Below, piece after piece: positions 1 to 15,942 of a DNA stretch of 64,000 bases. How positions within the stretch are numbered: position 1 is the stretch's first letter; every line of letters begins with the position of its first letter. A model generated the notes under the pieces. The model did no database searches, was not told the origin of the DNA, and saw only the letters and a program-made list of their open reading frames with translations. Origin of the DNA: Gemmatimonadota bacterium (GTDB lineage Bacteria; Gemmatimonadota; Gemmatimonadetes; Gemmatimonadales; Gemmatimonadaceae); NCBI GenBank assembly GCA_028287235.1, contig JAQBQB010000012.1, forward strand, positions 1 to 64,000, written 5' to 3'. Position numbers and translations under genes: made by a program.

Positions 1-140
1 CCACCGTATTTCTTCTTCCAGCGATACAGTGTCTGCTCGGTGACGCTGTGACGCCGCACCAGATCGGCGACCTTCGCGCCGGCGTCCCACTCCTGCAGAA
101 CCGCGATGATCTGTTCCTCCGAAAACCGGCTTTTCTTCAT
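1..140 (-). CDS. IS3-family transposase OrfA, N-terminal part (runs off window)
   Basis: The reading frame starts at the ATG on 138-140 and reads MKKSRFSEEQIIAVLQEWDA, then a helix-turn-helix ending in TLYRWKKKYGG at the window edge. This is the standard N-terminus of the IS3/IS407-type OrfA (transposase_8, HTH_Tnp_1), which binds the element ends; OrfB, the DDE catalytic part, would lie outside the window. The frame is intact for the 46 codons visible. It is the first gene inward from the element end at 197. Family assignment is firm; whether the element is still active cannot be judged here. Confidence 0.9.
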   Translation of the reverse strand, partial: MKKSRFSEEQIIAVLQEWDAGAKVADLVRRHSVTEQTLYRWKKKYG

Positions 141-197
141 AGTCCTCTCGGCTGAGGACTAACAATATCACTGGATCAGCGTTCGGGTTTCACGTCA
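1..197 (-). mobile_element. End of an IS3-family insertion sequence
   Basis: OrfA starts 57 bp inside the proposed element end. Read on the minus strand the end begins TGACGTGAAACCCGAACG, and IS3/IS407-group elements commonly start with TGA. The boundary at 197/198 rests on a comparison: the 240-bp sequence duplicated at 9353 starts exactly at 198, so homology stops where the element begins. The other end and the target-site duplication lie outside the window. Confidence 0.75.
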
Positions 198-310
198 CAT
201 ACGTTCGCAGCCTATCGTGCGCGGACGCCGGTTTCCTTTATGAGTGCTCCGCATAGACCACGTGGTTCGACGGATCAATCTCGCCCCACCCCCGGAGCCA
301 CCCAAGAGAA

Positions 311-340
311 GACGCCCGCGCTTTCACGCGGGCGTCTTGT
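311..340 (-). terminator. Rho-independent terminator in repeat copy A
   Basis: Arms GACGCCCGCG and CGCGGGCGTC enclose a 7-base loop. On the minus strand the hairpin is followed by TTCTCTTGG, a weak T-rich tail. It matches the terminator after the M14 peptidase in copy B (9468-9491), so it is probably the orphaned terminator of a lost paralogue. Confidence 0.7.
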
Positions 341-386
341 CATTCACACATCCCTAACCCGCCATCCTACGGCGAGGTTCATAATC

Positions 387-434
387 TCACGGCACCACCG
401 GAGGCGGCGGCGCGCCTGTTTCCCCGTGGAATAA
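387..434 (-). pseudogene. Remnant of the 3' end of an M14 peptidase paralogue
   Basis: Read on the minus strand, the codons before the TGA at 387-389 give PLFHGETGAPPPPVVP. This resembles the C-terminus of the intact peptidase at 9543, which ends LFNGIYAPTNVAPSVVP. A stop codon lies just upstream in the same frame and nothing recognisable precedes it, so only the last 15 or so codons survive. With the terminator at 311-340 it implies that a second M14 gene once stood here. The similarity is short but sits inside a longer DNA repeat, which makes chance unlikely. Confidence 0.6.
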
Positions 435-492
435 AGGCTAACCGGAGAGAGCGTGATCCCGTTCGCATGCTCGCGATGAGCGTCCTCACGAT

Positions 493-1074
493 TTACCGTC
501 TCTCCAGGAACCCTTTGCCTTCGAAGATCGCCGGCATCGCCTTTTCGATTCGCGCCGTCCTCGTCTCCGACTGCTTGGCCGCCGCAAAGTGGTACAGGTA
601 ACTCCTTTGCCGCCCGGGCGTCAGCGCCTCGAAGGCGCGCTTGAAACGCGGGTCCCGTCGGAATCGCTCGCTCAGCTCCTCGGGAACCGGAAAATCTGAG
701 GTCGTCTTCCGGTTCAACCGCAGTCCGGCCTTTTCGACTGCGATAGCCTCGCGCACGTACGCCTTGATGGTCGCCGCTTTCGCCACGATGTCCTTCGCGC
801 TGGTGAACTTCATCACCCGCCCGGCCTGTACCTGGCCGAGTTGCACCAGCATCTTCTTAGGATCCTTCAATAGGGCGCCCTGAAAGAAGCCCAACCCAAA
901 GTACTCTTTGAAGCCCTGGATGATGACGATGTTCTTTCCGTCCAGTGTATAGGTGGGCTTACCCCACTTACACTCTTCCTTCATCGCAAAGCCGGCGAGC
1001 ACCCGCTGCATCGCCGCGATCTCTACCGCCCACCGCTCTCGATACGCCATCTCCATGCAGGCACGACCCTCCAC
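493..1074 (-). CDS. YdeI/OmpD-associated family protein with DUF1801-like domain
   Basis: The 193-residue protein has two parts. Residues about 10-105 fit the DUF1801/YdhG fold, with CKWGKPTYTLDGKNIVII and GFFQGALLKDPKKML as the usual landmarks. Residues about 125-193 fit the YdeI helical domain, with ERFRRDPRFKRAFEALTPGR and KQSETRTARIEKAMPAI. Such proteins are small cytosolic proteins of unclear function; YdeI has been linked to resistance to peptides in enteric bacteria. The true start may be Met7 or Met9 (MEMAYRERW). The gene stands alone, convergent with nothing, just downstream of the amidohydrolase. Confidence 0.85.
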   Translation of the reverse strand: MEGRACMEMAYRERWAVEIAAMQRVLAGFAMKEECKWGKPTYTLDGKNIVIIQGFKEYFGLGFFQGALLKDPKKMLVQLGQVQAGRVMKFTSAKDIVAKAATIKAYVREAIAVEKAGLRLNRKTTSDFPVPEELSERFRRDPRFKRAFEALTPGRQRSYLYHFAAAKQSETRTARIEKAMPAIFEGKGFLERR

Positions 1075-1133
1075 AATCGGTTAACACGACGTCTTGCTTC
1101 GTCAGTCGGCCGGGTAGGACTGCCGGCAGCGTA

Positions 1134-2846
1134 TCACTTCCAGCCTACCCACCCCGGCCCGCGCACTACCCGTCCCGGCGTCGCGCCGGTCGGCTCGCCG
1201 TTCGCGAGGACGGCGACGCCGTTCACCAGTACGTCGCGCACTCCGGTGGCGTACTGCGCAGGTTTGTCGAACGTCGCGTTGTCGCGGATCGTCCTCGGAT
1301 CGAACACGACGATGTCGGCGAAGTAGCCGGGCCTGAGCCGGCCACGCTCGCGCAGCCTGAGATTGTCCGCTGGCAGCGCACTGAGGCGGCGGATGGCCTC
1401 CTCGAGCGACACGAGGTGCTCATCGCGCACGTACTTGCCCAAGAATCGCGCGAAGTTGCCGTAGGCGCGGGGATGAGCGTTTGATAATAAGAAAACTCCA
1501 GAGGCCGAGTAGGCGCCTTCGTCCGAGCCGAAGCTCACCCACGGCTGCGCGAGCTGCTTGCGCACATTGTCTTCGCTCATGAGGAAATACACGGTGCCGA
1601 CGCGGCTGCCGTCTCTTATGACGAGATCCATCGCCGTCTCCTCGGGCGACGTGCCGCGCAGTTTCGCGACCTCGCCGAGCGATTTGCCTGTGTATTGCTT
1701 GAGCGAGTCGGCCTTGAAGCCGACCAGGAGTACGCGATCGGGCGAGCCGGTGCCGAGGAAGAGATTTTCCCAGCCGCCGTTGGGATCGTCCATCTCGCGC
1801 TTGACGCGGGCGCGCACCGCCGGATCCTGCAGCCGTTTCGCCCACGCCGCGTAGCCGCCCTCCTGCACCCAGGGTGGCATCGACGCGTCGAGCCCGGTGG
1901 CGCCGGCGGTGTAGGTGTACATGTCGGCCGTGATCGCCGCGCCCGCACGCCGCGCCGAGTCCACCTTGGCGATGACCGCGTCCATCTTCGGCCAGTTGCG
2001 CTGCCCGGCGGCTTTGAGATGGTAGATCTCGGCGCGGATGCCCGCCTCGCGCGAGATGGTGAGCAGCTCGTCGACGGCCTCGATCAGCCGGTCGCCCTCG
2101 CTGCGCATATGAGATATGTAAATCCCGCCCGCCGGCGCGGCCGCCCTGGAGAGCGCAATGAGCTCGGACGTTTTCGCGTACACGCCCGGCGCGTAGATCA
2201 ACGCGCTGGCGACGCCGAGCGCGCCTTCGTCCATCGCTTGCCGCACGAGCGCTTGCATACGCGCAAGCTCGGCGGCCGTCGGCGCGCGGTCGTCCCAGCC
2301 GATCTCGTGGATGCGGGCCGTCGCCGCGCCGATGAAGGATGCGACATTGGGCGACACGCCGTGCGCGACGAGTGCATCGAGACCCTGGCCGAGCGTGGTC
2401 CAGGTGACGGGGTATTTGAGGTCGCCCTGATCCTTCACCGCGAGCACCTTCATCGAGTCGGAGAGTGGGCCCATCGAGTCCCCTTCGCCGAACACCTCGA
2501 GCGTAACGCCCTGCCGTAGATCGCTTTGGCCGCGGCCATCGACGAACAACGGCTCGTGGCTGGACATGAGGTTGATGAAGCCTGGCGCGACGGCCATGCC
2601 GGCGGCGGCGATCTCGCGCGCTCCAGAGAGGCGATGACGGCCGCCGGTGTCGATCGCAGCGACACGGTCGCCGCGGATGGCGACGTCGCCGGTGAACGGC
2701 GCGTGGCCGCTGCCGTCGTAGATCGTGCCGCCGCGAACGATGACGTCGTACGGGCCGGCGCCGGGCGACGATGCGGTGTTAGCTGGGCCTCGGCACGCGA
2801 CGACGGAGAGTGTCGCGATCACGGCGAACAGCAAGTGTCTTTGCAT
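1134..2846 (-). CDS. D-aminoacylase-type amidohydrolase, predicted lipoprotein
   Basis: This 570-residue protein opens with a lipoprotein signal (MQRHLLFAVIATLSVVAC, lipobox LSVVAC), so it is probably anchored outside the cytoplasm. DVIVRGGTIYDGSGHAPFTG begins the amidohydrolase fold and LRPGYFADIVVFDP ends it, as in N-acyl-D-amino-acid deacylases. Later metal ligands look present: YISHMRSEG, AEIYHLKAAG and FGSDEGAYS. The usual N-terminal HxH after APGFI is absent; the sequence there is APGFINLMSSHEPLF. It starts 2 bp after the DUF885 stop, so the two are probably co-transcribed and may act on related peptides or acylated amino acids. Substrate is not predictable. Confidence 0.85.
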   Translation of the reverse strand: MQRHLLFAVIATLSVVACRGPANTASSPGAGPYDVIVRGGTIYDGSGHAPFTGDVAIRGDRVAAIDTGGRHRLSGAREIAAAGMAVAPGFINLMSSHEPLFVDGRGQSDLRQGVTLEVFGEGDSMGPLSDSMKVLAVKDQGDLKYPVTWTTLGQGLDALVAHGVSPNVASFIGAATARIHEIGWDDRAPTAAELARMQALVRQAMDEGALGVASALIYAPGVYAKTSELIALSRAAAPAGGIYISHMRSEGDRLIEAVDELLTISREAGIRAEIYHLKAAGQRNWPKMDAVIAKVDSARRAGAAITADMYTYTAGATGLDASMPPWVQEGGYAAWAKRLQDPAVRARVKREMDDPNGGWENLFLGTGSPDRVLLVGFKADSLKQYTGKSLGEVAKLRGTSPEETAMDLVIRDGSRVGTVYFLMSEDNVRKQLAQPWVSFGSDEGAYSASGVFLLSNAHPRAYGNFARFLGKYVRDEHLVSLEEAIRRLSALPADNLRLRERGRLRPGYFADIVVFDPRTIRDNATFDKPAQYATGVRDVLVNGVAVLANGEPTGATPGRVVRGPGWVGWK

Positions 2847-2848
2847 GG

Positions 2849-4714
2849 TCAGACTCCGGTTCGCACGTACTCGTCGACATTCTTCGCCAGGACGTCGAGT
2901 GGCACGTTCCCGCCACGCACGACAGTGTCGTCGAACGCCCTCAGATCGAACCTACCCGCGAGCGCCGCCATCGCCTTGTCGCGCTGCCGATTGATCTCGC
3001 TGTGACCAACCTTGTAGCCACACGCCTGTCCGGGCCATGAGCAGTAGCGATCGACTTCGCTCGCGACCTCGAGCGGATTCGATCCGTTGAAGTCCACGAA
3101 ATACTGAACGCCCTGAGCGCGCGTCCAGCGTTTGGCGTGGATGCCCGTGTCCACGACGAGACGACACGCGCGAAACGCCAGCGATTGCAGATAGCCAAGC
3201 CGGCCAACGCGATCCTGCGAATACGCTCCGAGCTCGTCGGCGAGCTGTTCGGCGTACAGTGCCCATCCTTCGGAGTACGCGTTGAAGGCGAGCATCTGCC
3301 GGATGAGCGGCATCTGATGCGTGTACTCACCCTGCCACACATGGCCCGGGATCGCTTCGTGAAACGTCAGATCGGCCAAGCTGTACTTGCTGTGGAGCTC
3401 CGTGGTCCGGAGGTTGATCCACATGCGGCCGGGAATCTTGCCGTCGATCGAGCCCGCACCGCCGTATGCCGCGGGCGCACCGGGTTCCTCCTCGGGCGGC
3501 AGACGCTTCACTTCCATGTTCGGATCCACGACCGTGTTGAACGCGCGTGGCATCTGTGCGCGAATCCATGCGAGACGGTCGCTGATGAACGCCAGGATTT
3601 CGGCGCGGCCCGGATCACCTTCAGAGAACTTGTATCGCGGATCGCGCGCCAGCGCCTGCATGCGCTCGCCAACCGTGCCGGTCGAGAGGCCGAGCGCCTT
3701 CAGGATCGGTTCCATCTGTCCGTGCAGTCGCTGCACTTCACTTTGACCCAACGCGTGAATCTCGTCGGGCGACATCGTCGTGGTGGTCGACGCCCTCAGC
3801 GCCCACCCATAGTATTCGTCGCCGTGCGGCCGCGACGCGATGCCGGGGTCGTTCGTGGCGACGGACCGTTCCGCCTGCAGCTCGCCGAGCTGGCGTGCGA
3901 GCGCCGGCGCGATCTCGCCTGTGACGATCGTCCGTGCGCGGCCCGCCCAATCGCCGGGGATGTTCTTCGACCGCCGCGCGATCGACTCCACGAGCGTTCC
4001 GCCGTCGCGCGCGTTGCTCGCGGAGATCGTCATCTGGCGCACGGCTTGATCGACGAGGAACCTCGGCGGCACGAGTCCCGCCGCACGGGCGGCGCGCATG
4101 CGACCCAGCTCTCCGTCGAGCTGCTTCGCGTAGGACTGCAGTCGCTCGAGGTACGCTTCGGCGTCGCGTGCACTCTCGATCCGGTGATCGGAATCGAGGA
4201 AGCGCGGGATGTCGAGATACGCGCCGACGTTCTGGATGACGACGTACGGCGTATTGCGCCAGCCTCCGACCGCGACGTCGCCGTACGGGAGCGCGAATCC
4301 CTCGAGCGACGTCGTGTAGGCGCTCCGGACAACCTCGACGCTGGTGCGCACCGCGTGCGAGAGCCCGTGCGTATCGAGCGCGATGACGCGATCCAGGTCC
4401 GTTCGAATCCGGCTCGCCAAGCGCTGTTGTCCTTCGGCGGACCGGTCGTTCAGCGCGGATCGCAGCGACGCTCTCGCGCCGGTGTCGATGCCGAGCGACG
4501 TCGCCAGCTCCGGCATGAGCTGAATGAGATGCTCGGCGACGTCGTCGAGCAGCGCGAGTGCGTGTGCGTCGTCCGAGGCAGCAGGCATGTTCACCGGGTA
4601 GCGGCTGAACGCAGACAACAGGGGCACGGCGGCGACGGACGCCAACGCCGCGATCGCCTCGCGACGACTGACCGTCGTGCCGGAACGGGCACCATTTTCG
4701 ATCATCCGCGTCAT
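2849..4714 (-). CDS. DUF885 family protein with Tat-type signal, probable metallopeptidase
   Basis: I place the start at the ATG on 4712-4714 (next in-frame ATG at 4705), because it leads straight into a twin-arginine-type signal (SRREAIAALASVAAVPLLSA). A longer upstream frame has no signal logic. The roughly 620-residue protein has the DUF885 landmarks: FHEAIPGHVWQGEY, EGWALYAEQLADELGAY and RYCSWPGQACGYKVGH. HEAIPGH is a variant HExxxH-like metal site; family members are generally annotated as putative peptidases with few tested functions. It is the promoter-proximal gene of a two-gene unit with the amidohydrolase and diverges from the PadR gene. Confidence 0.85.
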   Translation of the reverse strand: MTRMIENGARSGTTVSRREAIAALASVAAVPLLSAFSRYPVNMPAASDDAHALALLDDVAEHLIQLMPELATSLGIDTGARASLRSALNDRSAEGQQRLASRIRTDLDRVIALDTHGLSHAVRTSVEVVRSAYTTSLEGFALPYGDVAVGGWRNTPYVVIQNVGAYLDIPRFLDSDHRIESARDAEAYLERLQSYAKQLDGELGRMRAARAAGLVPPRFLVDQAVRQMTISASNARDGGTLVESIARRSKNIPGDWAGRARTIVTGEIAPALARQLGELQAERSVATNDPGIASRPHGDEYYGWALRASTTTTMSPDEIHALGQSEVQRLHGQMEPILKALGLSTGTVGERMQALARDPRYKFSEGDPGRAEILAFISDRLAWIRAQMPRAFNTVVDPNMEVKRLPPEEEPGAPAAYGGAGSIDGKIPGRMWINLRTTELHSKYSLADLTFHEAIPGHVWQGEYTHQMPLIRQMLAFNAYSEGWALYAEQLADELGAYSQDRVGRLGYLQSLAFRACRLVVDTGIHAKRWTRAQGVQYFVDFNGSNPLEVASEVDRYCSWPGQACGYKVGHSEINRQRDKAMAALAGRFDLRAFDDTVVRGGNVPLDVLAKNVDEYVRTGV

Positions 4715-4782
4715 CGTCGTGGGGGTTCTCAGGCCGTGGGGTGGTCGTCGGTTCTGACGTGCAGGATACAAGCTCGGCCACG

Positions 4783-4791
4783 TACTTCGTA
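4783..4791. promoter_or_regulatory. Possible PadR operator in the divergent promoter region
   Basis: TACTTCGTA is a short dyad (TAC-TTC-GTA) 15 bp before the PadR start and 69 bp before the DUF885 start. PadR proteins typically bind dyads close to their own promoter. This is a pattern match only; the 91-bp gap has no other obvious site. Confidence 0.3.
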
Positions 4792-4805
4792 AGACCTCCG
4801 GCCCC

Positions 4806-5129
4806 GTGTCCGCCCGCCCCCTCTCCGTCGTCACCATCCACGTTCTCGGCGCCATCGCGGCGGGCGAGCGCTATGGGTTCAGCATCCTGGACGCGGCCGA
4901 GTTGCCGTCGGGGACCGTCTATCCCATTCTCTCCCGCCTCGAAAAGACCGGACTCGTTCGTGGGACATGGGAGCCGCCTTCAGTCGCGCAGCGCGAGCGT
5001 CGGCCGGGGCGGCGGTACTACGAGATCACCGCCGGTGGATCGCGCGAGCTGGCGCGCTCCATCGAGTACTATCGCACCGTCGGCGGCGGCCGAAAAGGTC
5101 CGCTCGTCTCGCGGCCGTCGCGTGGCTGA
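4806..5129 (+). CDS. PadR-family transcriptional regulator
   Basis: The 107-residue protein starts at GTG and carries the PadR winged helix: VVTIHVLGAIAAGERYGFSI, SGTVYPILSRLEKTGLV and GRRYYEITAGGSRELARS. The length is typical for short PadR proteins without a large C-terminal dimer domain. PadR proteins are repressors that often control transporters or stress genes and their own promoter. The obvious target here is the divergent DUF885-amidohydrolase pair. The partner gene often found downstream of PadR is missing; instead a decayed IS3 fragment begins at once, which suggests the partner was lost. Confidence 0.9.
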   Translation: MSARPLSVVTIHVLGAIAAGERYGFSILDAAELPSGTVYPILSRLEKTGLVRGTWEPPSVAQRERRPGRRYYEITAGGSRELARSIEYYRTVGGGRKGPLVSRPSRG

Positions 5130-5134
5130 CGACG

Positions 5135-5330
5135 AAGAGAAGCTCCCGTGGCGCGAGCACGACCGCGCAGCCGCCCATCGCGTACATCCTTCCGCCACTT
5201 CGTGAGCATGAACGGGTGAATCTCCAAGCCGGCGGCAACCGTCTTCACTGCATGCCGGGCTGCCGACTCAACCGTTCCGCCGTCAGTTTGAACTCAACAC
5301 TGTACTTCCGCGCCGTCGGCCTGATCGCGG
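5135..5330 (-). pseudogene. Degenerate IS3-family OrfA fragment
   Basis: Read on the minus strand one frame gives RKYSVEFKLTAERLSRQPG followed by a TGA at about 5245. Shifting frame there gives VKTVAAGLEIHPFMLTKWRK and then DVRDGRLRGRARATG. Together this is the typical N-terminal half of an IS3-type OrfA broken by one frameshift. Its 3' part ends against the PadR gene, and its upstream side (5340-5380) runs into the half attC at 5381-5407. It is a different element from the OrfA at position 140. The protein similarity is read by eye but extends over about 60 residues. Confidence 0.75.
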
Positions 5331-5380
5331 CATGAAACCTCCATCGTTAGGTAGAAGTGTCAACGAAAGTGGAGCAAGTA

Positions 5381-5407
5381 CCTTGGCAGCTTCAGCGTTC
5401 GTTAGAG
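5381..5407 (-). other. Half attC site (R'' and L'' boxes only)
   Basis: On the minus strand the sequence after the reverse transcriptase stop reads CTCTAACGAACGCTGAAGCT. It matches the first half of the two complete sites (TCTAACGTGCGTTGCAGC and CCTAACGAACGTTGCAGC). The second half and the GTTAnnn box are missing; sequence consistent with an IS3-type leader follows instead. The site looks cut by an insertion and should be dead for recombination. Confidence 0.65.
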
Positions 5408-5434
5408 AGCAGCGCGCGTGACGAAAGAGATGCG

Positions 5435-7027
5435 CTAGTCGAGCGCATCGAGCCTCACGAGTGCGACGGCATTGGTAACCAAAAAACTTTCATCCTTCAT
5501 TCGGGCCAGAATGGAATTACGACGACCGGGTTCCATACGCCGGATCGCGCAGACGAGTTCGGCTCGTTCCAGATCAGAAACGGCTGCGGACAGAGCCTCT
5601 TCAAGTCGATCTATGTCCGCCGATGACCCGAATCGCGCGACGAACTCCCTCGCCGTAGAGCGAACGAAGGACGGGGCGGCGAGGTTAAACGCAACTTCCC
5701 TCACGTATGCTACGAAATCCGTACTCGGTGTGGTGGTTACACTAGTCCGCCAGGAGATGATCTGGTGGACCTGATACCAATACACATTGTCAGGGGATCG
5801 CAAGAAGGCCACGAGCATCGCGTCGACGGCCGATGGTGGGGCGGTTACCGCTACGTATCGCAAAATCGGCGCTGTCTCCTGTGGTTGAACAGCCAGGAGC
5901 GTTAGGCAATGAGGAAACGCGAAATCGTCACTCGCGTTGCGAAACCGTGTCAGCAGAAAGTGAAACAGCGTTTTGTCGAAATCATCAGCGTTTCCCTCAA
6001 CGATGTGTTGGGTGTAAATGGACTGCATAATCTCGATCGGCGCGCCATCAGGATTCGCCGCAATAAGCTCCTCCGCCTCCCATAAGCTGAAGTACGGGTC
6101 CGTTACGCCGAATAGGTCAGCAATGTCGTGTACATACTCCTTTAAGGCGGCGACAAGTACGGGCTGAACGCCTTCGATGTCTGCCCGAGCGGCATCGGCC
6201 ACATGAATTCCGGACTTGGCGGTCTGCAATACCAACCCGCGCTTTCGGAGAAGCACGATTAAATGGACCAGCGCCTTCCGAGCCTCCGGCAGGGACAAGG
6301 CGAATAGCCGGAAGTCATCCACATATCTGTAGTGGAAGACTCCTCTGTCGTTCAATCCGCTGTCGACCGCATGAAGATAGAGCCTGGCGAGGATATCAGA
6401 CGCTGCGTAGCCCTGCGGAAGCCCCCGTCCCGGAACCTGGCTCAGGGACCATTTGTTAAGGCATTTGGAAAGTAGTTGTGCAGCGAGATTGTTGTCGTTC
6501 ACCGCGCGGACGTCGGAAAGCATCAAAGCAATGTCGATGTGCTCGTAGAAGCCGGCGATATCGGTAATTGCAACGTGGCTGGCGCCCTGTGCGATGCGAA
6601 TCAGGCTAGCAACGCCAAATTGTTTCCACCCCCCGAACGGGTTGTCGAGCCAGTGGTATGAGCCGGGATTCGGAGCAATTGGATGCGAGAAGTCGCGTGG
6701 TCGATCCGGCCATACCAGCAGTTGGCGAATTGTCGGTGAGTAAAACCCGACACAAGCCGTGTAGACGACGTGATCGCGTAGTGAAAGCCGACCGCCAGGC
6801 CGAATCGCTCCCTTAGGCTTGGGCACGTGGCAAATATCGAGCGGCCCAGGCTCGTAGTCGCCGGTCGACAAGTCGTTCCTCAGCGCATCCAACCAGGATG
6901 CTTCGTTCTTCGCTACCAGACGCAGCTCATGAGGATGTACACCGAAACACCGATCACGGCTGATCTCGTGTTTCACCCGGCGCAACGCGAGCGCGAGATC
7001 CAGAAAATCAGTTACCGTATCTGGCAT
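5435..7027 (-). CDS. Reverse transcriptase of the defence-associated (UG/Abi-like) type
   Basis: The 530-residue protein has an RT core at about residues 60-280: RPGGRLSLRDHVVYTACVG, the first catalytic Asp in TDIAGFYEHID (D156), GLPQG at 202-206, and YVDDF at 235-239 with the two remaining catalytic Asp. Residues about 300-530 have no recognised domain but look all-helical and repeat-like, as in Abi/UG class RTs with a helical C-terminus. There is no intron maturase domain, no group II intron RNA and no template/variable repeat, so it is neither a group II intron RT nor a DGR. It starts 15 bp after an attC site, as cassette genes do. The exact UG/DRT class is not assigned. An anti-phage role is inference. 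Confidence 0.8.
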   Translation of the reverse strand: MPDTVTDFLDLALALRRVKHEISRDRCFGVHPHELRLVAKNEASWLDALRNDLSTGDYEPGPLDICHVPKPKGAIRPGGRLSLRDHVVYTACVGFYSPTIRQLLVWPDRPRDFSHPIAPNPGSYHWLDNPFGGWKQFGVASLIRIAQGASHVAITDIAGFYEHIDIALMLSDVRAVNDNNLAAQLLSKCLNKWSLSQVPGRGLPQGYAASDILARLYLHAVDSGLNDRGVFHYRYVDDFRLFALSLPEARKALVHLIVLLRKRGLVLQTAKSGIHVADAARADIEGVQPVLVAALKEYVHDIADLFGVTDPYFSLWEAEELIAANPDGAPIEIMQSIYTQHIVEGNADDFDKTLFHFLLTRFRNASDDFAFPHCLTLLAVQPQETAPILRYVAVTAPPSAVDAMLVAFLRSPDNVYWYQVHQIISWRTSVTTTPSTDFVAYVREVAFNLAAPSFVRSTAREFVARFGSSADIDRLEEALSAAVSDLERAELVCAIRRMEPGRRNSILARMKDESFLVTNAVALVRLDALD

Positions 7028-7042
7028 CGAATGATCGTTGCT

Positions 7043-7139
7043 CTCTAACGCCCAAGTTCAGCTGCAGGGCGATCAATAGAAGAGCGCGCGGAGCGCGCTC
7101 CATCAATAGCCGCCCTGTCTGCTGCAACGCACGTTAGAA
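7043..7139 (-). other. attC recombination site after the Shedu gene
   Basis: On the minus strand the site runs from TTCTAACGTGCGTTGCAGCA to GCAGCTGAACTTGGGCGTTAG. The arms pair over most of their length (GGGCGGCTATTGAT with ATTGATCGCCC-type sequence) around a GGAGCGCGC/GCGCGCTC tip. R'' is TTCTAAC and R' is GTTAGAG. Its length of 97 bp and imperfect pairing with unpaired bases are normal for attC. The Shedu stop codon lies 10 bp upstream. Confidence 0.88.
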
Positions 7140-7148
7140 CACACGGCG

Positions 7149-8258
7149 CTACACTGGCGGCCCGAGTAGCTCTTCAAACTGCTCAACGCGTCGAAACAAC
7201 TCGTCGAATGTTACAAGTGTTACGCCGTTGATCCGCTCGCGAAAGCGCTCAAACGACAGCTTCTTTGCTTGGCAGTCAAGTGTACCACAATGCCCTGCTA
7301 CGATGAGGCACCTGGGTTCGGTGAGTAGCAGCCCATGAGCTTCGTCGTCAAGAGCGCGCATGTTTGCAAATAGAGAGTCACGATACTTGAGCACTTGGGC
7401 CACCGCGCCTGTCAGTTCACTCGAAAGAGGAAATGCTTCATCGCGGTAGGCAGATCCGAGAAGTGGTGTTCCCGGAGTCTTGATTTCGATGATCAGGGCA
7501 TTGCCCACGGCGGCGGACTTGGCGAGGTAGTCCGCAATATTCCCGTGCTGATTGTCCAGTCGCTTGCCGCCTACATAGGCCTTCTCCCTGAGTACGACGA
7601 CTGGATAGGCGAAGAGCTGAGAGAATACATGGGTATGTTCTGAGAACTGACGTTGCCAGAACTCTTCTGACTCATTGTTCGTATTCTTGCGCCAGATCGC
7701 GTGCACCGTTCGAAGCGCAGCGAGGCCAAGCGCCGCGTTGATTGCGGCGATTTGCCCTCCGTCCGCCTCTATGAAGTCGCCAAGCGCGGAAGTATCGGTC
7801 AGCCACCGAAGTACTTTCCGAAGCGTGGCTACCGCTTCCGTGGGATGCGTAGACAAGAAGGCATGGAGCTCCGCGTCACCGAGATCTAGAAGCTGCGCCA
7901 GATTGCGCTCGAGCTTGACGTACTGTTGGCGGCCCTGAGGCACGCCGTCTTCCCGAGCCAGTTTGTAGAGTCGAGCAAGCTCGCGCAGGAGCGATACCAA
8001 CTCGCCGGAGGGCAGTTCCAGTTTGTAGCCTTCTCCCTTCTTGAGATGCGCGAGGGAGTCGATCGGGCTGTTGAGCCACTCATCGCTCTTGCCTTTTCTT
8101 TGATAGAGGAATGTTCCGCGAAGACACGCAGCTGGATCGCCCGGATTGGCTACGATTTCTGGGCGGAATAACAGCCGGACCGTATCTGATTCTCGGATGA
8201 TTATGTCCGAGCAGATCGCGGAGCTGCGCGACGTCGAGACGACCTGGAGAGGGTGCAC
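7149..8258 (-). CDS. sduA: Shedu-type immune nuclease (SduA, DUF4263)
   Basis: The 369-residue protein starts at GTG. The C-terminal nuclease domain (about 190-365) has the PD-(D/E)xK pattern of Shedu: D243 in NIADYL, then E258 and K260 in LIIEIKTPGTPLLG, followed by SSELTGAVAQVLKYRDSL, the family hallmark with its conserved Gln. LIVAGHCGTLD and FERFRERINGVTLVTFDEL complete the fold. The first 190 residues are a variable N-terminal part, as usual in Shedu. Shedu is a known single-gene anti-phage system in which the nuclease cuts DNA on infection. Here it is the second cassette of the array, with its own attC. Family assignment is strong; activity is not tested. Confidence 0.88.
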   Translation of the reverse strand: MHPLQVVSTSRSSAICSDIIIRESDTVRLLFRPEIVANPGDPAACLRGTFLYQRKGKSDEWLNSPIDSLAHLKKGEGYKLELPSGELVSLLRELARLYKLAREDGVPQGRQQYVKLERNLAQLLDLGDAELHAFLSTHPTEAVATLRKVLRWLTDTSALGDFIEADGGQIAAINAALGLAALRTVHAIWRKNTNNESEEFWQRQFSEHTHVFSQLFAYPVVVLREKAYVGGKRLDNQHGNIADYLAKSAAVGNALIIEIKTPGTPLLGSAYRDEAFPLSSELTGAVAQVLKYRDSLFANMRALDDEAHGLLLTEPRCLIVAGHCGTLDCQAKKLSFERFRERINGVTLVTFDELFRRVEQFEELLGPPV

Positions 8259-8277
8259 TTTGAAGATGGTCGGTGTG

Positions 8278-8397
8278 TTATAACGCTTTAGTTCAGCTGC
8301 GAGCCTTCAAAGGGCGATACCAAAAGACTAAATCGGGATGTTGGCGGGCGCCATCTTGCGGAGATGCAGAACTCGTCAGCTGCAACGTTCGTTAGGC
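8278..8397 (-). other. attC recombination site after the DUF5677-like gene
   Basis: On the minus strand the site runs from GCCTAACGAACGTTGCAGCT to GCAGCTGAACTAAAGCGTTA. The inner boxes GTTGCAGCTGACGAG and CTCGCAGCTGAAC are complementary, and the centre of about 70 bp is variable. R'' is GCCTAAC and R' is GTTATAA. At 120 bp it is longer than the Shedu site but shares its conserved ends. Confidence 0.85.
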
Positions 8398-8437
8398 GGC
8401 TCGTGCTGCGACCTCGGCTTGGCAACTTGCGAGTTGG

Positions 8438-9160
8438 TTACACTCGCAGATCTCGAAAGCGCTCGATGAGCGCGAATGTATCGGTCGCAAAGCGCTCAAC
8501 TGGCTTGATCCGTTGCTGTTCAGGAGGCTGGTCCTTCGTGAATGACCACAGCCCCAGACCGATTCCGTGCATGGTCCAAAGGAGTCCTGCGCGCGCGGCG
8601 CGCGCGAGGCCAGGGGTGAAGAACAAGTCAAGCTGAATTCGAGTGGCAGTTTCTTCGTTACGGACGCCAAACCCGCTTTGAAGCATCGGGTTGCCGTGTT
8701 TTGCCGCAGAGAGGTTCGTGTAGAACTTGTAAAAGTCGGCCTCCAGATGTGCCAGCTCAAGACGAGTCAGTATTGAACGTAGAGCTGCTCGTGCATCCCA
8801 CGGTGTCCGTTTGATGTCACGATGATCGAACCACTGCTGCGCACGATCCTCGCTGGTCCCGATATGCCCGATCGCGTAGCAGAACTCGAGAATCGATGTG
8901 CCAAGCGCCCAGGACTGCATGACGTATCCAGAGCGCGCCAATATGCCCATCGCTCGAGCATCGTTGCCGATGCGCGCGAGCAGGATGGTCTTGGCACGGA
9001 GTGCTTTTGAGTTGTTCCGAACGTTGTTGTGGGCATCGAGGACCGTGAAGATCAGCCGATCCGTTCGATGAACCAGACGAAGATAGGGCGCCAAGTGCGG
9101 CCGAAACGCAGCGCGAACGCGTCGTTCGACTGCAGCCTTTGTCTGTCGTGGAGAGGTCAC
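8438..9160 (-). CDS. Uncharacterised cassette protein, DUF5677-like
   Basis: The 240-residue, GTG-started protein looks largely helical and lacks a signal peptide or membrane segment. KTILLARIGNDARAMGILAR and SWALGTSILEFCYAIGHIG, then FYKFYTNLSAAKHGNPML, resemble the arrangement of DUF5677, a family with HEPN-like character in which a YxxLSxxxHG motif recurs. No catalytic set can be assigned with confidence. It is the first cassette of the array relative to transcription and sits beside two defence-type genes, so a defence or toxin role is possible but unproven. Confidence 0.6.
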   Translation of the reverse strand: MTSPRQTKAAVERRVRAAFRPHLAPYLRLVHRTDRLIFTVLDAHNNVRNNSKALRAKTILLARIGNDARAMGILARSGYVMQSWALGTSILEFCYAIGHIGTSEDRAQQWFDHRDIKRTPWDARAALRSILTRLELAHLEADFYKFYTNLSAAKHGNPMLQSGFGVRNEETATRIQLDLFFTPGLARAARAGLLWTMHGIGLGLWSFTKDQPPEQQRIKPVERFATDTFALIERFRDLRV

Positions 9161-9187
9161 TGTCCTGTCTGAGTGGCCAGGTTAGCC

Positions 9188-9209
9188 GCCTAACGCAGAT
9201 TCGACAGCG
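9188..9209 (-). other. Upstream half site of the array (L'-R' of a lost attC, or attI-like)
   Basis: On the minus strand CGCTGTCGAATCTGCGTTAG, followed by GC, stands 27 bp before the first cassette gene. It resembles the L'-R' halves of the complete sites (GCAGCTGAACTTGGGCGTTAG). No matching R''/L'' half is visible in the 150 bp further upstream. The array therefore begins at either a decayed attC or an attI-like site. Confidence 0.5.
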
Positions 9210-9352
9210 ATTTTACGCGACTTACCGAGCAAAGTCCACACATACCTACATGCTAGTTTCCTGACTACGACTTCGTCACGGATCCGTCCAAGCTCCAGAG
9301 GGCCACGAGTTTAGCCCGCTGGCGATCACCTAACCTCTTGCACGATAGACTG
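9210..9352. other. Gap between cassette array and repeat copy B
   Basis: About 140 bp without a reading frame, recognisable site or promoter. If this was once an integron platform, attI and the 5' end of intI would be expected here; neither is seen. Confidence 0.5.
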
Positions 9353-9600
9353 CATACGTACGCAGCCTATCGTGCGCGAACGCCGGTTTCTTTCATGAGG
9401 GCCGCGAATGGACCACGTGGTTCGACGGATCAATCCCGGCCCAATCCTGAAGTTGCCCAAGAAAAGAACGCCCGCGCTTTCGCGCGGGCGTCTTGTCGTT
9501 CACACATCTCGAACCCGCCATCCTGCAGCGGTTTTCACACCATCAAGGCACCACTGAAGGCGCCACATTGGTCGGCGCATAAATACCATTGAACAGAAAC
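9353..9600. repeat. 240-bp duplicated sequence, copy B (other copy 198-437)
   Basis: This copy keeps the intact context: 3' end of the M14 peptidase gene, terminator, and about 110 bp of flanking sequence ending CATACGTACGCAGCCTATC. Homology with copy A ends at 9353, which in copy A is the IS3 boundary. It is therefore the likely ancestral form. Confidence 0.85.
9466..9493 (-). terminator. Terminator of the M14 peptidase gene
   Basis: On the minus strand ACGCCCGCGC-GAAA-GCGCGGGCGT is followed by TCTTTTCTT. It is a 10-bp perfect stem with a GNRA-type loop and a T-rich tail, about 50 bp after the peptidase stop codon. Confidence 0.85.
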
Positions 9601-12440
9601 TTGAACGTCCCATGCGGCTGCCCGCGGAACGTAATCTCCGGCCCGAACATATAGAGCTTGCCTTTCCCGTAGTTGGCCTCGACCACAGCAGCCCCCCCTT
9701 CGAGATAGTTCTGCCCCCAAGCCCACCCCGACCGTAGTGGCGTTGCGTTGTCGAACCAGGCCACAGCCTTCGTCCCCTTCAACGCAGCATCCGGCTTCAA
9801 TCTGAACACCGGGCTGTTGTCGAAGAACACATCGAGCCTCTGCGGCATACCGGCAGCCACCGGATCGCTCGTGTCCACCGCCACCTGCAGAATCGACCCC
9901 GGCACGTAGTACTCCTCACCAGCCAACGGCCGATCCGGCTCGCCCGGCCCGCGAACCACCAGCTGATTCTCGATCGGCAGGTTGAGCGCGTAGCCGAGCG
10001 TCGTCGCTGTGCCCACTGTCACGATCGTGCCGCCGTCGTTCAGGAACTGCTTGAGCTGCGGCAGCGTCGTCTCCGGCGTCAGCGTGCCCTGCATCTTCTC
10101 GAACTCGGCCGGAACCGGCGCCGCTGGGCCACCGCGACCGCCGCCACCGCCGCCGCCACGTCCGCCGAACGCCGCGCCGCCCGCACCGCGGATCTGCGCG
10201 CCACTGGGCAGAATCAGCACGTCGAACTTGCTCTTCAGGTTGCCCGCGTCGAGATCCTTCGGATAGACGAGCGTATAAGGAATCTCGAAATTCTCGAACT
10301 CGAGACGCGTCCAGCCGCTCGGCATCGAGCCGCCGTACTGGTCGAACAGCGCGATGCGCTGCGCCGCGATCTTCACGGCGTCAGGACGCGACGTCGTGCC
10401 GGTGAAGTTGACGCCCAGATCGGCCGCCGACTTCTGCAGCACGGGGAGACTGGCGGCCGGGATGTAGTACGTGCCGGCCGGCCAGGTCTTGCCGTTCACC
10501 GTGGTCGGGGTCTTGATCCAATCCACCTCGCCGCCGGCCTTCTGCACGCGGTTGATCACCGTCACCGCGTCGTTCACGTCGTGCGACATCAGATAGCCCG
10601 CGGCGCCCGATCCGCCGGCGACCGTACCGGCCATCGGCTTCGCGAGCTCGCTGCCCATGATGCGGCGCGTCGGCGCGTCGAACGCGTCCATCACACGGTC
10701 GAACTTCACGCCCATCTCGTACGCCAGCGTCCAGCCGGCGTTGTCGTACGGCCGGCGCGGCGGACCGCCCGGGTACGCAAAGTCGTTCGGATGATCCTGC
10801 GGCTCCATCATGTCGAGAATGTGCGCGCGCGCCGCCTGGTTGTTGCGCAGCACGAACGAGCCCGCGGGATACTGCTTGCCGGCAACGCTGAACGGCGCCG
10901 TCGCCTGGTCGACGTACACGCCCACGTGGCGCAGCGTGTTCACGAACTTGACCGCCGTGAGAAAGTCGGGCTGGTCGGCCGGAATGATGTAGCCGCGCGG
11001 ATCGCGCTTGTCCTTGGCGTGCAGCACGTCGTTGTAGGCGTGGCTCTGCGCCTCGAGGCTGCCGCCGCGACCGAACGCCGCCACCGGATCGCCCACCGCG
11101 CCGCCCGGCTGGTTCGCCACCGGCGCCGCCGCGCCGCCACGACCGCCGCGCGCGCCACGGCCGCCGGCCGGTGCACCGGCCTGCGTCGCGCCCGCGTTCA
11201 GCGCGTCCGTCGCCTCGGCGATGCTCTTGCCCGAGATCGTCCAGCTGTCGGTGTTGCCCTTGGCGATCGCGTGCTTCGCCATGAGATATTTGTCATAGAG
11301 CATCGTCTCGCGATAGCGCGAGGCGAGATCGAAGATCGCGTAGTTCGCCGACACCGAGTAGTCGATCGACTGGCGGAAATGCCAGACGCCCGGCGTCGCC
11401 GGCGCGGGGATGTCGCCGCGCGGCAGCTGCTGCTCGGGAATGAACGGGATCCGCTCCGGCGTCGGGTTGCCGATCGTCTCCGTGAGAATGCCGATGATGC
11501 CCTGGAAGTAGCCGATCGTGCGCAGGCCGCCGTTCCACCACGTGGAGTAGCTCGAGCCCGAGCGCATCGTGAAGCCCGGCTTGTTCTCCTCGAGCAACCG
11601 CTGGTGAATCGCGGCGCCCACCATGTCCAACCCCATCACGATCATCGGATCGAGATTGTAGTTGAACGGATCGCGGAACGGGGGCGAGAACATCACGGTG
11701 CCCGCCGGACCGGTCTGGTGATGGTTGTACATGATCACCGGATGCCAATCCCAGAACATCAAGTGGTTGATGTTCTTCGTCTCGGCCAGGTTCGACATGA
11801 ACGAGTCGCGGTTGTCGTCGTGGCCCGCGTATTTGTTGTAGAGTAGCGGAATGTTCATGTTCCGCTTGAGCGTGTCGGCGTCCTTCATGTACCAGTTCGC
11901 CACGAGCTGCATGCCGTCGGGATTGGCGTGCACCGCGAGGATGATGTCGTCCTTCAAGATGCGGTTCGTCTCGTCGTCGTTGCGGCTGACGAGCTGGAAC
12001 GACGTCTCGATCAGCTGGTTCGCGCCGAGGACTTCCGTGGCGTGCAGACCGCCGTCGAACCACACCACCGACTTCCCTTCCTTCGCCAGCGCGTGCGCCT
12101 GCTCGTCGGTCAGCCCCTCGCCCTTGGCGAGACGCATCGAGATGTCCTTGTACTTCGCCAGAAGCTTGAAGTTCTCGGGAGCCGTGATGATCGCCGCGAG
12201 CTGCGGGCGGCCTTCACTCGACTTGCCCATCTCGATCACCTGCATCCGGTTCGATTCGGCGTCGATCTTGTGCCAGTACGCCACGAACTGGTCGTAGTTG
12301 GGGAGGAAGTAGTCGTCCCCAATGTTGTGGCCGAAGAACTCCTTCGGCGTCGTGACATGCCCCTGGGCTCCTGCCGTGGCCGCGACGAAAACGAGCGGCA
12401 ACACGGCGGCGCGCCAGGAACGAAGTCCGCGCATGGACAT
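9543..12440 (-). CDS. Secreted M14-family zinc carboxypeptidase-like protein
   Basis: I choose the ATG at 12440 because GGAGG lies 7 bp upstream and a signal peptide follows (AAVLPLVFVAATAGAQ); this gives 965 residues. The M14 zinc site is visible as GGLHATEVLG (H133, E136), followed by HANPDGMQL and WHPVIMYNHHQTGP for substrate contacts and the third ligand. The long C-terminal half (about 480-965) lacks a named fold by eye and holds two Gly/Arg-rich linkers (GGRGARGGRGG; FGGRGGGGGGGRGG). Large M14 proteins of this kind are common in soil bacteria with many exported peptidases. The neighbouring divergent gene also encodes a putative zinc protease. Confidence 0.88.
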   Translation of the reverse strand: MSMRGLRSWRAAVLPLVFVAATAGAQGHVTTPKEFFGHNIGDDYFLPNYDQFVAYWHKIDAESNRMQVIEMGKSSEGRPQLAAIITAPENFKLLAKYKDISMRLAKGEGLTDEQAHALAKEGKSVVWFDGGLHATEVLGANQLIETSFQLVSRNDDETNRILKDDIILAVHANPDGMQLVANWYMKDADTLKRNMNIPLLYNKYAGHDDNRDSFMSNLAETKNINHLMFWDWHPVIMYNHHQTGPAGTVMFSPPFRDPFNYNLDPMIVMGLDMVGAAIHQRLLEENKPGFTMRSGSSYSTWWNGGLRTIGYFQGIIGILTETIGNPTPERIPFIPEQQLPRGDIPAPATPGVWHFRQSIDYSVSANYAIFDLASRYRETMLYDKYLMAKHAIAKGNTDSWTISGKSIAEATDALNAGATQAGAPAGGRGARGGRGGAAAPVANQPGGAVGDPVAAFGRGGSLEAQSHAYNDVLHAKDKRDPRGYIIPADQPDFLTAVKFVNTLRHVGVYVDQATAPFSVAGKQYPAGSFVLRNNQAARAHILDMMEPQDHPNDFAYPGGPPRRPYDNAGWTLAYEMGVKFDRVMDAFDAPTRRIMGSELAKPMAGTVAGGSGAAGYLMSHDVNDAVTVINRVQKAGGEVDWIKTPTTVNGKTWPAGTYYIPAASLPVLQKSAADLGVNFTGTTSRPDAVKIAAQRIALFDQYGGSMPSGWTRLEFENFEIPYTLVYPKDLDAGNLKSKFDVLILPSGAQIRGAGGAAFGGRGGGGGGGRGGPAAPVPAEFEKMQGTLTPETTLPQLKQFLNDGGTIVTVGTATTLGYALNLPIENQLVVRGPGEPDRPLAGEEYYVPGSILQVAVDTSDPVAAGMPQRLDVFFDNSPVFRLKPDAALKGTKAVAWFDNATPLRSGWAWGQNYLEGGAAVVEANYGKGKLYMFGPEITFRGQPHGTFKFLFNGIYAPTNVAPSVVP

Positions 12441-12669
12441 CCAGAACCTCCGGATCGGGTAGGGAGAAGCAGCAGCGCGTCGGCCGGCGGGGTGGTGGGC
12501 CGGAGGACGGCAAAAAGGCGGCTGTAGCCTGGGTAAGACTAGCCTCTGGGAATACGCGCCAAAAGGGGTAAGCGCTGTCCTCATATGGCCCTTGGCGGCC
12601 CGTTGGACGGCGGCCGAAGAAGCGCGATATTGACGCCGTAGCGACCCCCACCCCGCTCCGGAGCTTCCC
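12441..12669. promoter_or_regulatory. Divergent promoter region between two exported protease genes
   Basis: The 229-bp gap separates outward-facing starts. It must hold both promoters, but I see no convincing -35/-10 pair; the peptidase Shine-Dalgarno GGAGG is the only clear signal. Confidence 0.4.
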
Positions 12670-14025
12670 GTGTTTCGACCAATTCGACTCGCGCTGCTGT
12701 TGCTCGCCGCCGCACCGCTCGCGCTCGCCGCGCAAACGCCGGCGTCGCTCCTCGCCGACAGCGTCATGCTTCTCAACCGCGCCGGAGATTGGGAGAAAGC
12801 CGGTGGCGCCGCGCGCCGGGGATTCGCGTCGAATCCGTCGGCCGACGAGGCGTGCGCCCTGCACATCGGCGCGGCCTACGCGCTCACCAGACTGGGCATC
12901 TTCGCATCGGCCGCCGAGCAGCTCCAGCTGGTCGACACGCAGTGTCCGGTGTCGCCGGTCGTGCGCCGGCAGGCGGCCGACATCGCGTCGATCAGACGCG
13001 AGCTCGCGCTGCCGCCCATGCCGAAGACCGGCATGGACTTCTCGGCGATCGACCAGTTCTGGAAAGTGGCCGATCAGCTCGTGCTGGACAAAACGCCTTC
13101 CGACGCCGACTGGCACGCCATGCTCGGCACGGTCGGCTATCGCTTGTCGATGAAGGTGGTGCCGACCACGCGGTCCGACATGGAGATCGCGCTGCGTCCG
13201 TCGCGCCGCGCCGAGTTCGACAGTCTCACGAAGCTACAGACGGATCAGGCGCTGCGGCTCAGGCATCTCGCGCTCGCGTACCCGCACCGCACCGAGCTCG
13301 CGCGCCTCATGGACTCGCTCACGCGCGCTCTGCCCATTCGCGACGCGGTCGCCGGCGCCGCGAAGTTTCTCCCGCCGCATGCGACGGAAGGCATCGATCC
13401 GCCGGTCGTCGCCTTCGCGATCTTCCGCGACGACGCCTACTCGCTCGGACCGGAGGGCGTCGTCGTGGATCTCGACCACATGCTCGACAACCCGCTCACG
13501 CCGCTGCTCGCGCACGAGTTCCATCACTCGTTTCTCTCGCGCCTCGACCAGATCAAGCGTCCCGCCGGCGACACGCCCGACGCCGCGCTCCTCGGCGCGC
13601 TGCTCGGGTTGCGCAACGAGGGCATCGCCGACCTGGTGGACAAGCCGTACCCGCTGTCCTTCCCCGGCAACGCGATGATGACGATGTACGCCACGCGCTA
13701 CAACGAGGCCTACGCGCGCACGCCCGCGGTGCTGCACTCGATCGACTCGCTGCTCGTCATCGCCGCCGACGACTCGACGCAGATGCGTCGCATCGGCCGC
13801 CAGGTGGCCAACCTGCTGCCGTCGAACGGCCATTACAACGGCTCGTACGTGGCGCGCGAAGTCTATGAGACTTTTGGCATCGACTCGCTCTATCCCGCCG
13901 TCGCGAGCCCGTTCGCGCTGTTGCGCACGTACTCGGCGGCCGAGATCAAGCACGGAAGGCCGGCGCCGTTCTCGGCGAAGGCGATGCGGGTGCTGGATGG
14001 GGTGGAGAGCCGGTACAAGAAGTGA
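12670..14025 (+). CDS. DUF5700-like putative zinc-dependent protease, exported
   Basis: The 451-residue protein begins at GTG with a signal peptide (RLALLLLAAAPLALAAQ). HEFHHSFLSRLDQ near residue 280 is an HExxH metal site, and LRNEGIADLVDKPYP supplies the downstream Glu typical of DUF5700 proteins. The N-terminal 200 residues are helical and may form tetratricopeptide-like turns. It diverges from the M14 peptidase and is convergent with map. Function is inferred from the motif only. Confidence 0.75.
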   Translation: MFRPIRLALLLLAAAPLALAAQTPASLLADSVMLLNRAGDWEKAGGAARRGFASNPSADEACALHIGAAYALTRLGIFASAAEQLQLVDTQCPVSPVVRRQAADIASIRRELALPPMPKTGMDFSAIDQFWKVADQLVLDKTPSDADWHAMLGTVGYRLSMKVVPTTRSDMEIALRPSRRAEFDSLTKLQTDQALRLRHLALAYPHRTELARLMDSLTRALPIRDAVAGAAKFLPPHATEGIDPPVVAFAIFRDDAYSLGPEGVVVDLDHMLDNPLTPLLAHEFHHSFLSRLDQIKRPAGDTPDAALLGALLGLRNEGIADLVDKPYPLSFPGNAMMTMYATRYNEAYARTPAVLHSIDSLLVIAADDSTQMRRIGRQVANLLPSNGHYNGSYVAREVYETFGIDSLYPAVASPFALLRTYSAAEIKHGRPAPFSAKAMRVLDGVESRYKK

Positions 14026-14040
14026 AATGGCGCGTGGTCA

Positions 14041-14373
14041 TGCGCTCAGGATGACAGCGGGGCAACGGCGCGTTGTCATCCTGAGGGAGCGCAGCGACCG
14101 AAGGATCGCTATGCGCCGAGAACAACCGCGCCGGGCAGAGCGATCCTTCGCTGCGCTCAGGATGACAGCACGGCAACGACGCGTGTCATCCTGAGGGAGC
14201 GCAGCGACCGAAGGATCGGCATGCGCCGAGAACAACCGCGCCCTTCGCTACGCTCAGGATGACAGCAGGGCAACGCCCCGTGTCATCCTGAGGGAGCGCA
14301 GCGACCGAAGGATCGCTTTGCGCCGGGAACAACCGCGCCGGTTAGAGCGATCCTTCGCTGCGCTCAGGATGAC
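14041..14373. repeat. REP-like palindromic array (three units plus a fragment)
   Basis: Units at 14075-14166, 14185-14263 and 14282-14373 each start GTCATCCTGAGGGAGCGCAG and end with a CTTCGCTGCGCTCAGGATGAC-type inverted copy; a fragment precedes at 14041-14056. Each unit can fold into a long hairpin. Related sequences occur at 16135-16159 and 61271-61368. They lie between the convergent ends of the DUF5700-like gene and map. Confidence 0.85.
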
Positions 14374-14401
14374 AACGTGCGCGGGATGACATGCTCATCT
14401 T

Positions 14402-14506
14402 CCCTCTTCCCTCTTCCCTCTTCCCTCTTCCCTCTTTCCCGCGCCCCGCGCCCCGCGCCCAACGCCCAACGCCCAACGCCCAACGCCCCACGCCCTACGC
14501 CCGCGT
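14402..14506. repeat. Heptanucleotide-periodic tract at the map stop codon
   Basis: Fifteen consecutive 7-bp units in strict phase: five CCCTCTT, then TCCCGCG, two CCCCGCG, four CCCAACG, CCCCACG, CCCTACG and CCCGCGT. The map stop codon lies inside the unit CCCTACG (14493-14499), so the tract overlaps the gene's 3' end. Confidence 0.9.
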
Positions 14507-15247
14507 CAACACCCGCGGCCCGTTCTCCGTGATCGCCACCGTATGCTCGAAATGCGCCGAGAGCGAGCCGTCGAGCGTCACGATCGTCCACCGGTCGGGC
14601 AGTGTCTTCGTCGCCGGCCCGCCGACGTTCACCATCGGCTCGATCGCCAGCGTCAGCCCGGGCACGAGCTTCTCGCGCCGCTTCGGCTTGCCGTAGTTCG
14701 GCACCTGCGGCTCCTCGTGAAACTCCACACCGATGCCATGGCCCACGAGATCGCGCACCACGCTGAACCCGGCCGCCTCGACCACCGCCTGCACCGCGAA
14801 GCCGATGTCGCCGATGTGATTGCCGACCTGCGCCGCGCCGATGCCCGCGTCGAGCGACCGCTGCGTCACGTCGAGCAAGCGCTGCGCTTCCGGACCGATC
14901 TGGCCCACCGGCACCGTCGCCGCGCTGTCGGTGAAATATCCCTTGTAGCCCACGCCCACGTCGAGCGAGATGATGTCGCCCTCCTTGAGCACGCGCTTCT
15001 TCGACGGAATGCCGTGCACGATCTCGTGGTTCACCGACGAGCAGATGCTCCCGGGGAATCCGTACAGCCCCTTGAACGCCGGCACGGCGCCCTCGTGGCT
15101 GCGGATGAACTCCTCGGCCACCTGATCGAGGTCGCCCGTGCTCATGCCCGGACGCACGGCGGCGCGCAACGCGTCGATCGTGGCGCCGAGGATCTTTCCC
15201 CCCTGCGCCATCAGGTCGATCTCACGCGCCGACTTGAGCTGGATCAT
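14495..15247 (-). CDS. map: Methionine aminopeptidase, type I
   Basis: The 250-residue enzyme removes the initiator Met from nascent proteins. Metal ligands of the pita-bread fold are visible: D in SLDVGVGYKGYFTD (two Asp), H in LVGHGIGVEFHEEP, E in LAIEPMVNVGG and E in SAHFEHTVAI. The start is the ATG at 15247, which overlaps the adk stop by 4 bp (ATGA), showing translational coupling. As in many bacteria map follows secY and adk, but infA, rpmJ, rpsM and the alpha operon that usually come next are absent; a heptad tract and REP array follow instead. Confidence 0.97.
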   Translation of the reverse strand: MIQLKSAREIDLMAQGGKILGATIDALRAAVRPGMSTGDLDQVAEEFIRSHEGAVPAFKGLYGFPGSICSSVNHEIVHGIPSKKRVLKEGDIISLDVGVGYKGYFTDSAATVPVGQIGPEAQRLLDVTQRSLDAGIGAAQVGNHIGDIGFAVQAVVEAAGFSVVRDLVGHGIGVEFHEEPQVPNYGKPKRREKLVPGLTLAIEPMVNVGGPATKTLPDRWTIVTLDGSLSAHFEHTVAITENGPRVLTRA

Positions 15248-15885: not shown

Positions 15886-15942
15886 GTCGATTCTGGATTT
15901 CGGAATGTGCGTTGGTGCGGTTGACACACGATCGAGCTCGAG

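Follow-up and report, generated by a model that had tools for sequence, protein, structure and literature searches.

The window, a 64,000-nt stretch of gemmatimonadote DNA, contains a remnant of a chromosomal integron on the minus strand, and the third cassette gene of this remnant encodes a reverse transcriptase (RT) of 530 aa. The order is attI, ORF240, attC, Shedu SduA, attC, RT and a half attC, as follows:

9184..9245, minus: attI-like primary recombination site, recognized by homology to integrase-linked sites
8438..9160, minus: ORF240, 240 aa, first cassette, family unassigned (DUF5677 below cut-off, E=0.029)
8278..8397, minus: attC of the ORF240 cassette
7149..8258, minus: Shedu nuclease SduA, second cassette (SduA_N + SduA_C, E=1e-102)
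7043..7139, minus: attC of the Shedu cassette
5435..7027, minus: RT_UG21 reverse transcriptase, third cassette gene
6173..7027, minus: RT core, fingers and palm, residues about 1-285 in the AlphaFold2 model
6560..6562, minus: motif A Asp156 (TDIAGFYEHI)
6311..6325, minus: YVDDF catalytic motif, residues 235-239
5438..6172, minus: HEAT/alphaRep-like C-terminal solenoid, residues 286-530 (245 residues, 14 predicted helices)
5387..5408, minus: truncated attC of the RT cassette itself, of which the left half is retained
5080-5345, minus: transposase-N-terminus-like remnant (HTH_Tnp_1 below cut-off, E=0.0015)

The RT gene is intact, with an ATG start and no internal stops in its reading frame and translation. 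Pfam RVT_1 matched it at E=1.5e-13, and it was the sole RVT_1 protein found in the 5.7-Mb genome. In an alignment with 15 relatives, Asp156 and D237 are invariant and D238 is nearly so. The complete core with a YVDDF motif described in the initial annotation was thus confirmed, and the catalytic residues expected of a UG21 RT are all in place. Structural alignments (VIA) of the RT core span residues ~3-288 of the protein.

The initial annotation considered the gene a candidate new RT that could be assigned to no named class, and proposed a search against class models. That search revealed an existing class: the best PADLOC profile was RT_UG21 (PDLC03759) at 419.9 bits (E=3.5e-126), covering residues 9-526 of 530 and profile positions 5-501 of 503, versus 165 bits for the runner-up, UG23, and 37 bits for the DRT4 profile. 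None of the NCBIfam DRT1-9 models came near its own cut-off on the window RT. Likewise, the score of group_II_RT_mat was 79.6 bits, far short of its cut-off of 300, and no maturase model matched in the Pfam profile search of the RT ORF, in agreement with the maturase-free reading given earlier. UG21 is also recognized as a class by myRT (PMC8934634), and no experimental work on it was found in the literature searched. Judged by its sequence, the window RT is a well-placed fresh member of this known, uncharacterised class.

A maximum-likelihood tree was built from 30 RTs, 11 of them UG21. In it, the window RT paired with a haloarchaeal plasmid UG21 (L032) with support of 96/93; this best resolved partner is 26% identical to it. 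The 11 UG21 proteins did not form one clade in the best tree, although the AU test did not reject such a clade (p=0.089). "UG21" therefore denotes here a profile-defined class, with the window RT on a deep branch. Membership of the group II clade, which the initial annotation had named as grounds for abandoning its reading, was rejected by the AU test (p=4e-109). The closest relative found comes from a different genus within the family (G611) and is split over two contig ends, its halves being 39% and 37% identical to the window RT. Both halves scored best to UG21, and the C-terminal half matched no other class. Degenerate-peptide scans of genome and viral contig collections with the window protein returned no close relatives, and a search of viral contigs with a three-member alignment returned none either.

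An AlphaFold2 model of the whole protein had a pLDDT of 86.8 and a pTM of 0.83. The C-terminal domain modeled alone was all-helical (pLDDT 86.9, pTM 0.81), and an alignment profile found several alphaRep chains at profile positions 416-507. The earlier description of this region as helical and unassigned was therefore right in its first part and not in its second: the C-terminus is, on these models, a HEAT/alphaRep solenoid, and the protein has the RT fused to an alphaRep/HEAT-like C-terminal domain that defines UG/Abi class 1. Superposition of the whole model on solved structures aligned 437 residues of DRT6 (PDB 9wy8; 3.9 A, Z 20.4), 436 of DRT4/UG15 (9vdo, 9l9s; 4.2 A, Z 19.2), 454 of AbiK (7r06; 4.3 A, Z 17.3), 387 of AbiA (8oz7; 4.1 A, Z 19.6) and 390 of Abi-P2 (7r08; 4.3 A). 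Taken together, the DRT6 and DRT4 structures aligned over ~436-445 residues at 3.9-4.3 A, whereas the superposition on DRT9 and DRT2 was confined to the RT core, some 250 residues (3.0 A for DRT9). Because the whole chain fits DRT6, DRT4 and AbiK and DRT2 and DRT9 fit the core only, we regard the window RT as class-1-like. A comparison with the helical domains of AbiK and AbiA had also been suggested, and it held for the whole chain. Taken alone, the C-terminus resembles many HEAT/ARM solenoids at Z 10-12, the tool's "common arrangement" range, and DRT4, DRT6 and Abi chains were absent from its best 50 VIA matches. The class 1 comparison consequently rests on the whole chain. With a UG21 profile and a C-terminus comparable to that of AbiK, the UG/Abi character first proposed for the gene was upheld, and its reading as a single-gene defence system is plausible.

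The spacers flanking the RT gene are laid out as integron attC sites are. To locate the cassette limits, 16 attC-like sites, taken from two further contigs of this genome and none from the window, were made into a covariance model (R1), which was run with filters off. The model was relied on because a simple attC pattern scanner, which gave many chance matches at scores of 17-19, was weak alone. R1 found the attC at 7043-7139 with 77.5 bits (E=5.1e-20) and that at 8278-8397 with 51.3 bits (E=2e-12); the third-best match on either strand of the window had E=0.13. The first of these, whose right end is the start of the RT cassette, also ranked first in the window with the independent scanner, at a score of 21.5 for which 0.05 sites are expected per 64 kb, and the second is 86% identical over 114 nt to an attC of a congener (G144). 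Downstream of the RT gene, the 19-nt attC consensus CTAACGAACGCTGAAGCTG matched with 0 mismatches at 5387-5405, where 0.02 chance matches are expected at up to 3 mismatches, and the transposase-like remnant follows directly on this truncated site. The RT gene is thus delimited in its own orientation by the attC at 7043-7139 and the left half-attC at 5387-5408, and its earlier description as a stand-alone cassette gene was literally correct. Upstream of the first cassette, the attI-like site shares 83% identity over 60 nt with the sequence adjoining an integrase remnant on contig C1 (64.4 bits; best shuffle, 30.1). It also aligns with the region that separates the integrase from the first attC in congener G177, and with the site before the first cassette on contig C22. 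GC content is 0.57 across the three cassettes and 0.67 in the flanks, which marks the cassettes out as an island. Collectively, the recombination sites show that the RT occupies the third cassette in what remains of a chromosomal integron.

No integrase scored over the cut-off in the whole genome, so the intI in cis of a complete integron is missing. Genome-wide, the attC model had 26 matches, among them about 16 in the first 13 kb of contig C27 (L108, G000:C27:1-14000), 2 at 16.5-17.6 kb of the same contig and 5 on contig C22 (L107, G000:C22:1-14000). These two contigs carry large attC arrays in which most cassette ORFs are without annotation. Contig C1 (L112, G000:C1) has an integrase C-terminal remnant, an attI-like site and a weak attC (E=7e-4), located at 7231-7395 and 5866-5986, both minus; together they represent another decayed integron of this genome. 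Full integrases (367-406 bits) are present in three congeners (G144, G177 and G661), and those of G144 and G177 adjoin arrays of the same attC family as the window. Synteny with congeners was anchored on the M14 peptidase gene; the DUF885 neighbour gene is absent from five congeners, and an empty-site comparison through it failed. Since the G144 integron adjoins the same M14 peptidase gene as the window (72% DNA identity over 1.9 kb), the window holds the integron site at which the genus carries its resident integron, here minus the integrase. In G177 (L159, C42) and G144 (L160, C36), intI, attI and attC all lie on one strand, unlike class 1 integrons, which usually have a divergent layout.

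Several repeats accompany the remnant. Two copies of a 209-nt non-coding repeat, 83% identical, lie at 198-406 and 9353-9562, and at the end of each is a hairpin resembling a strong terminator (ACGCCCGCGCTTTCxCGCGGGCGTCTTGT). A further full copy was found nowhere in the genome, and the copy at 9353-9562 occupies the place expected of the integrase gene, judged from G144. At 1-140 (minus), the contig ends within an IS transposase gene, of which the start is retained (HTH_Tnp_1, E=1.2e-13). A ~94-nt palindromic repeat of the TGTCATCCTGAGG...CCTCAGGATGACA type is present in three tandem copies at 14041-14374 and also on contig C1.

We also surveyed the neighbours of UG21 genes in other genomes. 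One UG21 RT sits in an HsdR-HsdM-HsdS operon (L127), another precedes HsdS (L047), a third is flanked by genes for a type IIG methylase and for a PLD-helicase (L130), and a fourth has a gene for a SAP + FokI-like nuclease 51 nt upstream (L003/L036); further neighbours were Fic, trypsin/PRTase and UvrD. At L127, L047, L128 and L130, the RT genes overlap, or lie close against, members of restriction operons of type I or type IIG. In this small, unsystematic sample, UG21 neighbours are varied defence genes with a tendency toward restriction operons. A fixed pairing of UG21 with a PD-(D/E)XK nuclease, an idea prompted by Shedu and L003, was ruled out by the varied neighbours at more loci. No attC of the window's family was found near UG21 genes in other genomes.

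The cassette boundaries leave little space beside the RT gene, with 15 nt before the ORF and 26 nt after it; thus an adjacent ncRNA does not fit. The flanks of the G611 RT, 88 and 67 nt, are without similarity to those of the window RT, and at L127, L047 and L130 the UG21 gene overlaps, or all but touches, the gene on either side of it. Rfam at gathering threshold matched tRNAs alone. A permissive Rfam search of 4700-9700 yielded no group II intron RNA, and no DGR-like template/variable repeat pair was present in 1-16000, both as the initial annotation had stated. Hence the conserved ncRNA beside the RT gene that typifies class 2 DRTs is missing here. The RT's occurrence as its own movable cassette suggests that it acts alone and synthesizes DNA without an RNA template, and the absence of ncRNA room, with the short or overlapping flanks of relatives, favours such a single-gene, template-independent reading.

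What that reading would entail can be drawn from better known relatives. Class 1 UG RTs share an RT + alphaRep hallmark, and the members studied synthesise DNA template-independently (PMC13174585). In AbiK, the solenoid substitutes for the template strand and underpins assembly into trimers and hexamers, and synthesis is primed from a tyrosine (PMC9508834); DRT4 is a single-gene, template-independent system (PMC13213688). By analogy with AbiK, DRT4 and DRT6, phage infection would activate the window RT, probably in trimeric or hexameric form with the HEAT/alphaRep solenoid holding the subunits together. This solenoid would replace the template strand, DNA would be made without a nucleic-acid template, and priming would come from a hydroxyl-bearing residue of the RT itself. 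Either the DNA-protein product or its build-up would then keep the phage from replicating or stop the infected cell, as in abortive infection. For the window RT, we infer each of these steps from fold to chemistry, as well as the antiphage role, from the characterized systems. Overall, we put at roughly 0.6 the probability that the gene is a class-1-like UG21 RT in an autonomous cassette, acting as a single-gene, template-independent and probably protein-primed polymerase in abortive defence.

Other readings were weighed against the same data. One possibility is that the cassette is old, its integron having decayed, and that the RT is an inactive or non-defensive passenger, silent or with a housekeeping role. 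With the integrase missing from the genome, the RT cassette may be poorly expressed, and its truncated attC followed by a transposase-like remnant also fits this reading. Set against this are an intact ORF whose catalytic and core residues are conserved at 39% identity to the closest relative, and the repeated location of UG21 relatives beside restriction, Fic and other defence genes; we judge a passenger unlikely, if deserving of some weight. Lower still is our estimate for an RNA-templated, class 2-like enzyme (as DRT2, DRT9 and DRT10) copying a small ncRNA from elsewhere or from a neighbouring cassette. Several solved DRTs require an ncRNA, and the RT core fits that of DRT9 well; nonetheless, the 15 and 26 nt available in the cassette, the dissimilar G611 flanks, the near lack of flanks at L127, L047 and L130, the Rfam result and a C-terminal solenoid of the class 1 kind all argue otherwise. 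An ncRNA might still be supplied in trans or lie embedded within the RT ORF. Equally doubtful is the proposal that UG21 RTs are restriction backup modules, usually set within type I or type IIG restriction operons, that would fire when a phage disables restriction, with the present one freed as a cassette beside Shedu.

The adjacency of RT and Shedu on the same strand, and the SAP + FokI-like nuclease gene 51 nt upstream of the L003/L036 UG21 RT, might suggest that the two window genes form one system. An attC lies between them, however, so that Shedu and the RT are separate mobile units. Shedu was absent from the other UG21 loci examined, where neighbours vary widely, and a two-gene system is for both reasons very improbable. 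Group IIC-attC intron RTs are the RT type known from integrons, and one such RT was seen in a class 1 integron (L135), which together with the integron array here raises the question of whether the window RT is another. It was refuted as such by the AU test, the low maturase score and the intron RNA search, and in addition a solenoid replaces the maturase domain and the gene is oriented with the cassettes; we give this origin almost no credence.

An autonomous, single-gene polymerase is thus our preferred reading, and the cassette makes it directly testable. An integron cassette is a natural minimal unit, in that recombination sites mark the piece inherited and moved, and here that piece is the RT alone: a compact unit to clone for examining the claim of a single gene with no ncRNA. 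The recurrent placement of relatives in restriction operons suggests a second testable idea. The backup role, if true, would link template-free DNA synthesis to the sensing of anti-restriction.

Comparison with known systems places the locus among several. Sedentary chromosomal integrons have been termed defence biobanks (Darracq et al. 2025, as cited in PMC13064858), and an RT now joins the list of defence genes that they store; no report of a UG21 RT as an integron cassette was found in the literature searched. As in other integrons with defence-gene cassettes, attC sites delimit the defence genes, here Shedu and the RT, but in this case a gemmatimonadote is the host and the integrase has been lost. 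Both the RT core and the C-terminal helical domain align with DRT6 and DRT4, although identity to the window RT is 12-15%; AbiK, AbiA and Abi-P2 share the combination of RT and alpha-solenoid at 12-14% identity. Within RT_UG21, the window RT has the same RT core and C-terminal part, matched over their full length, and differs in its setting: the others lie mostly in restriction or other defence operons, whereas the window RT resides in an integron cassette.
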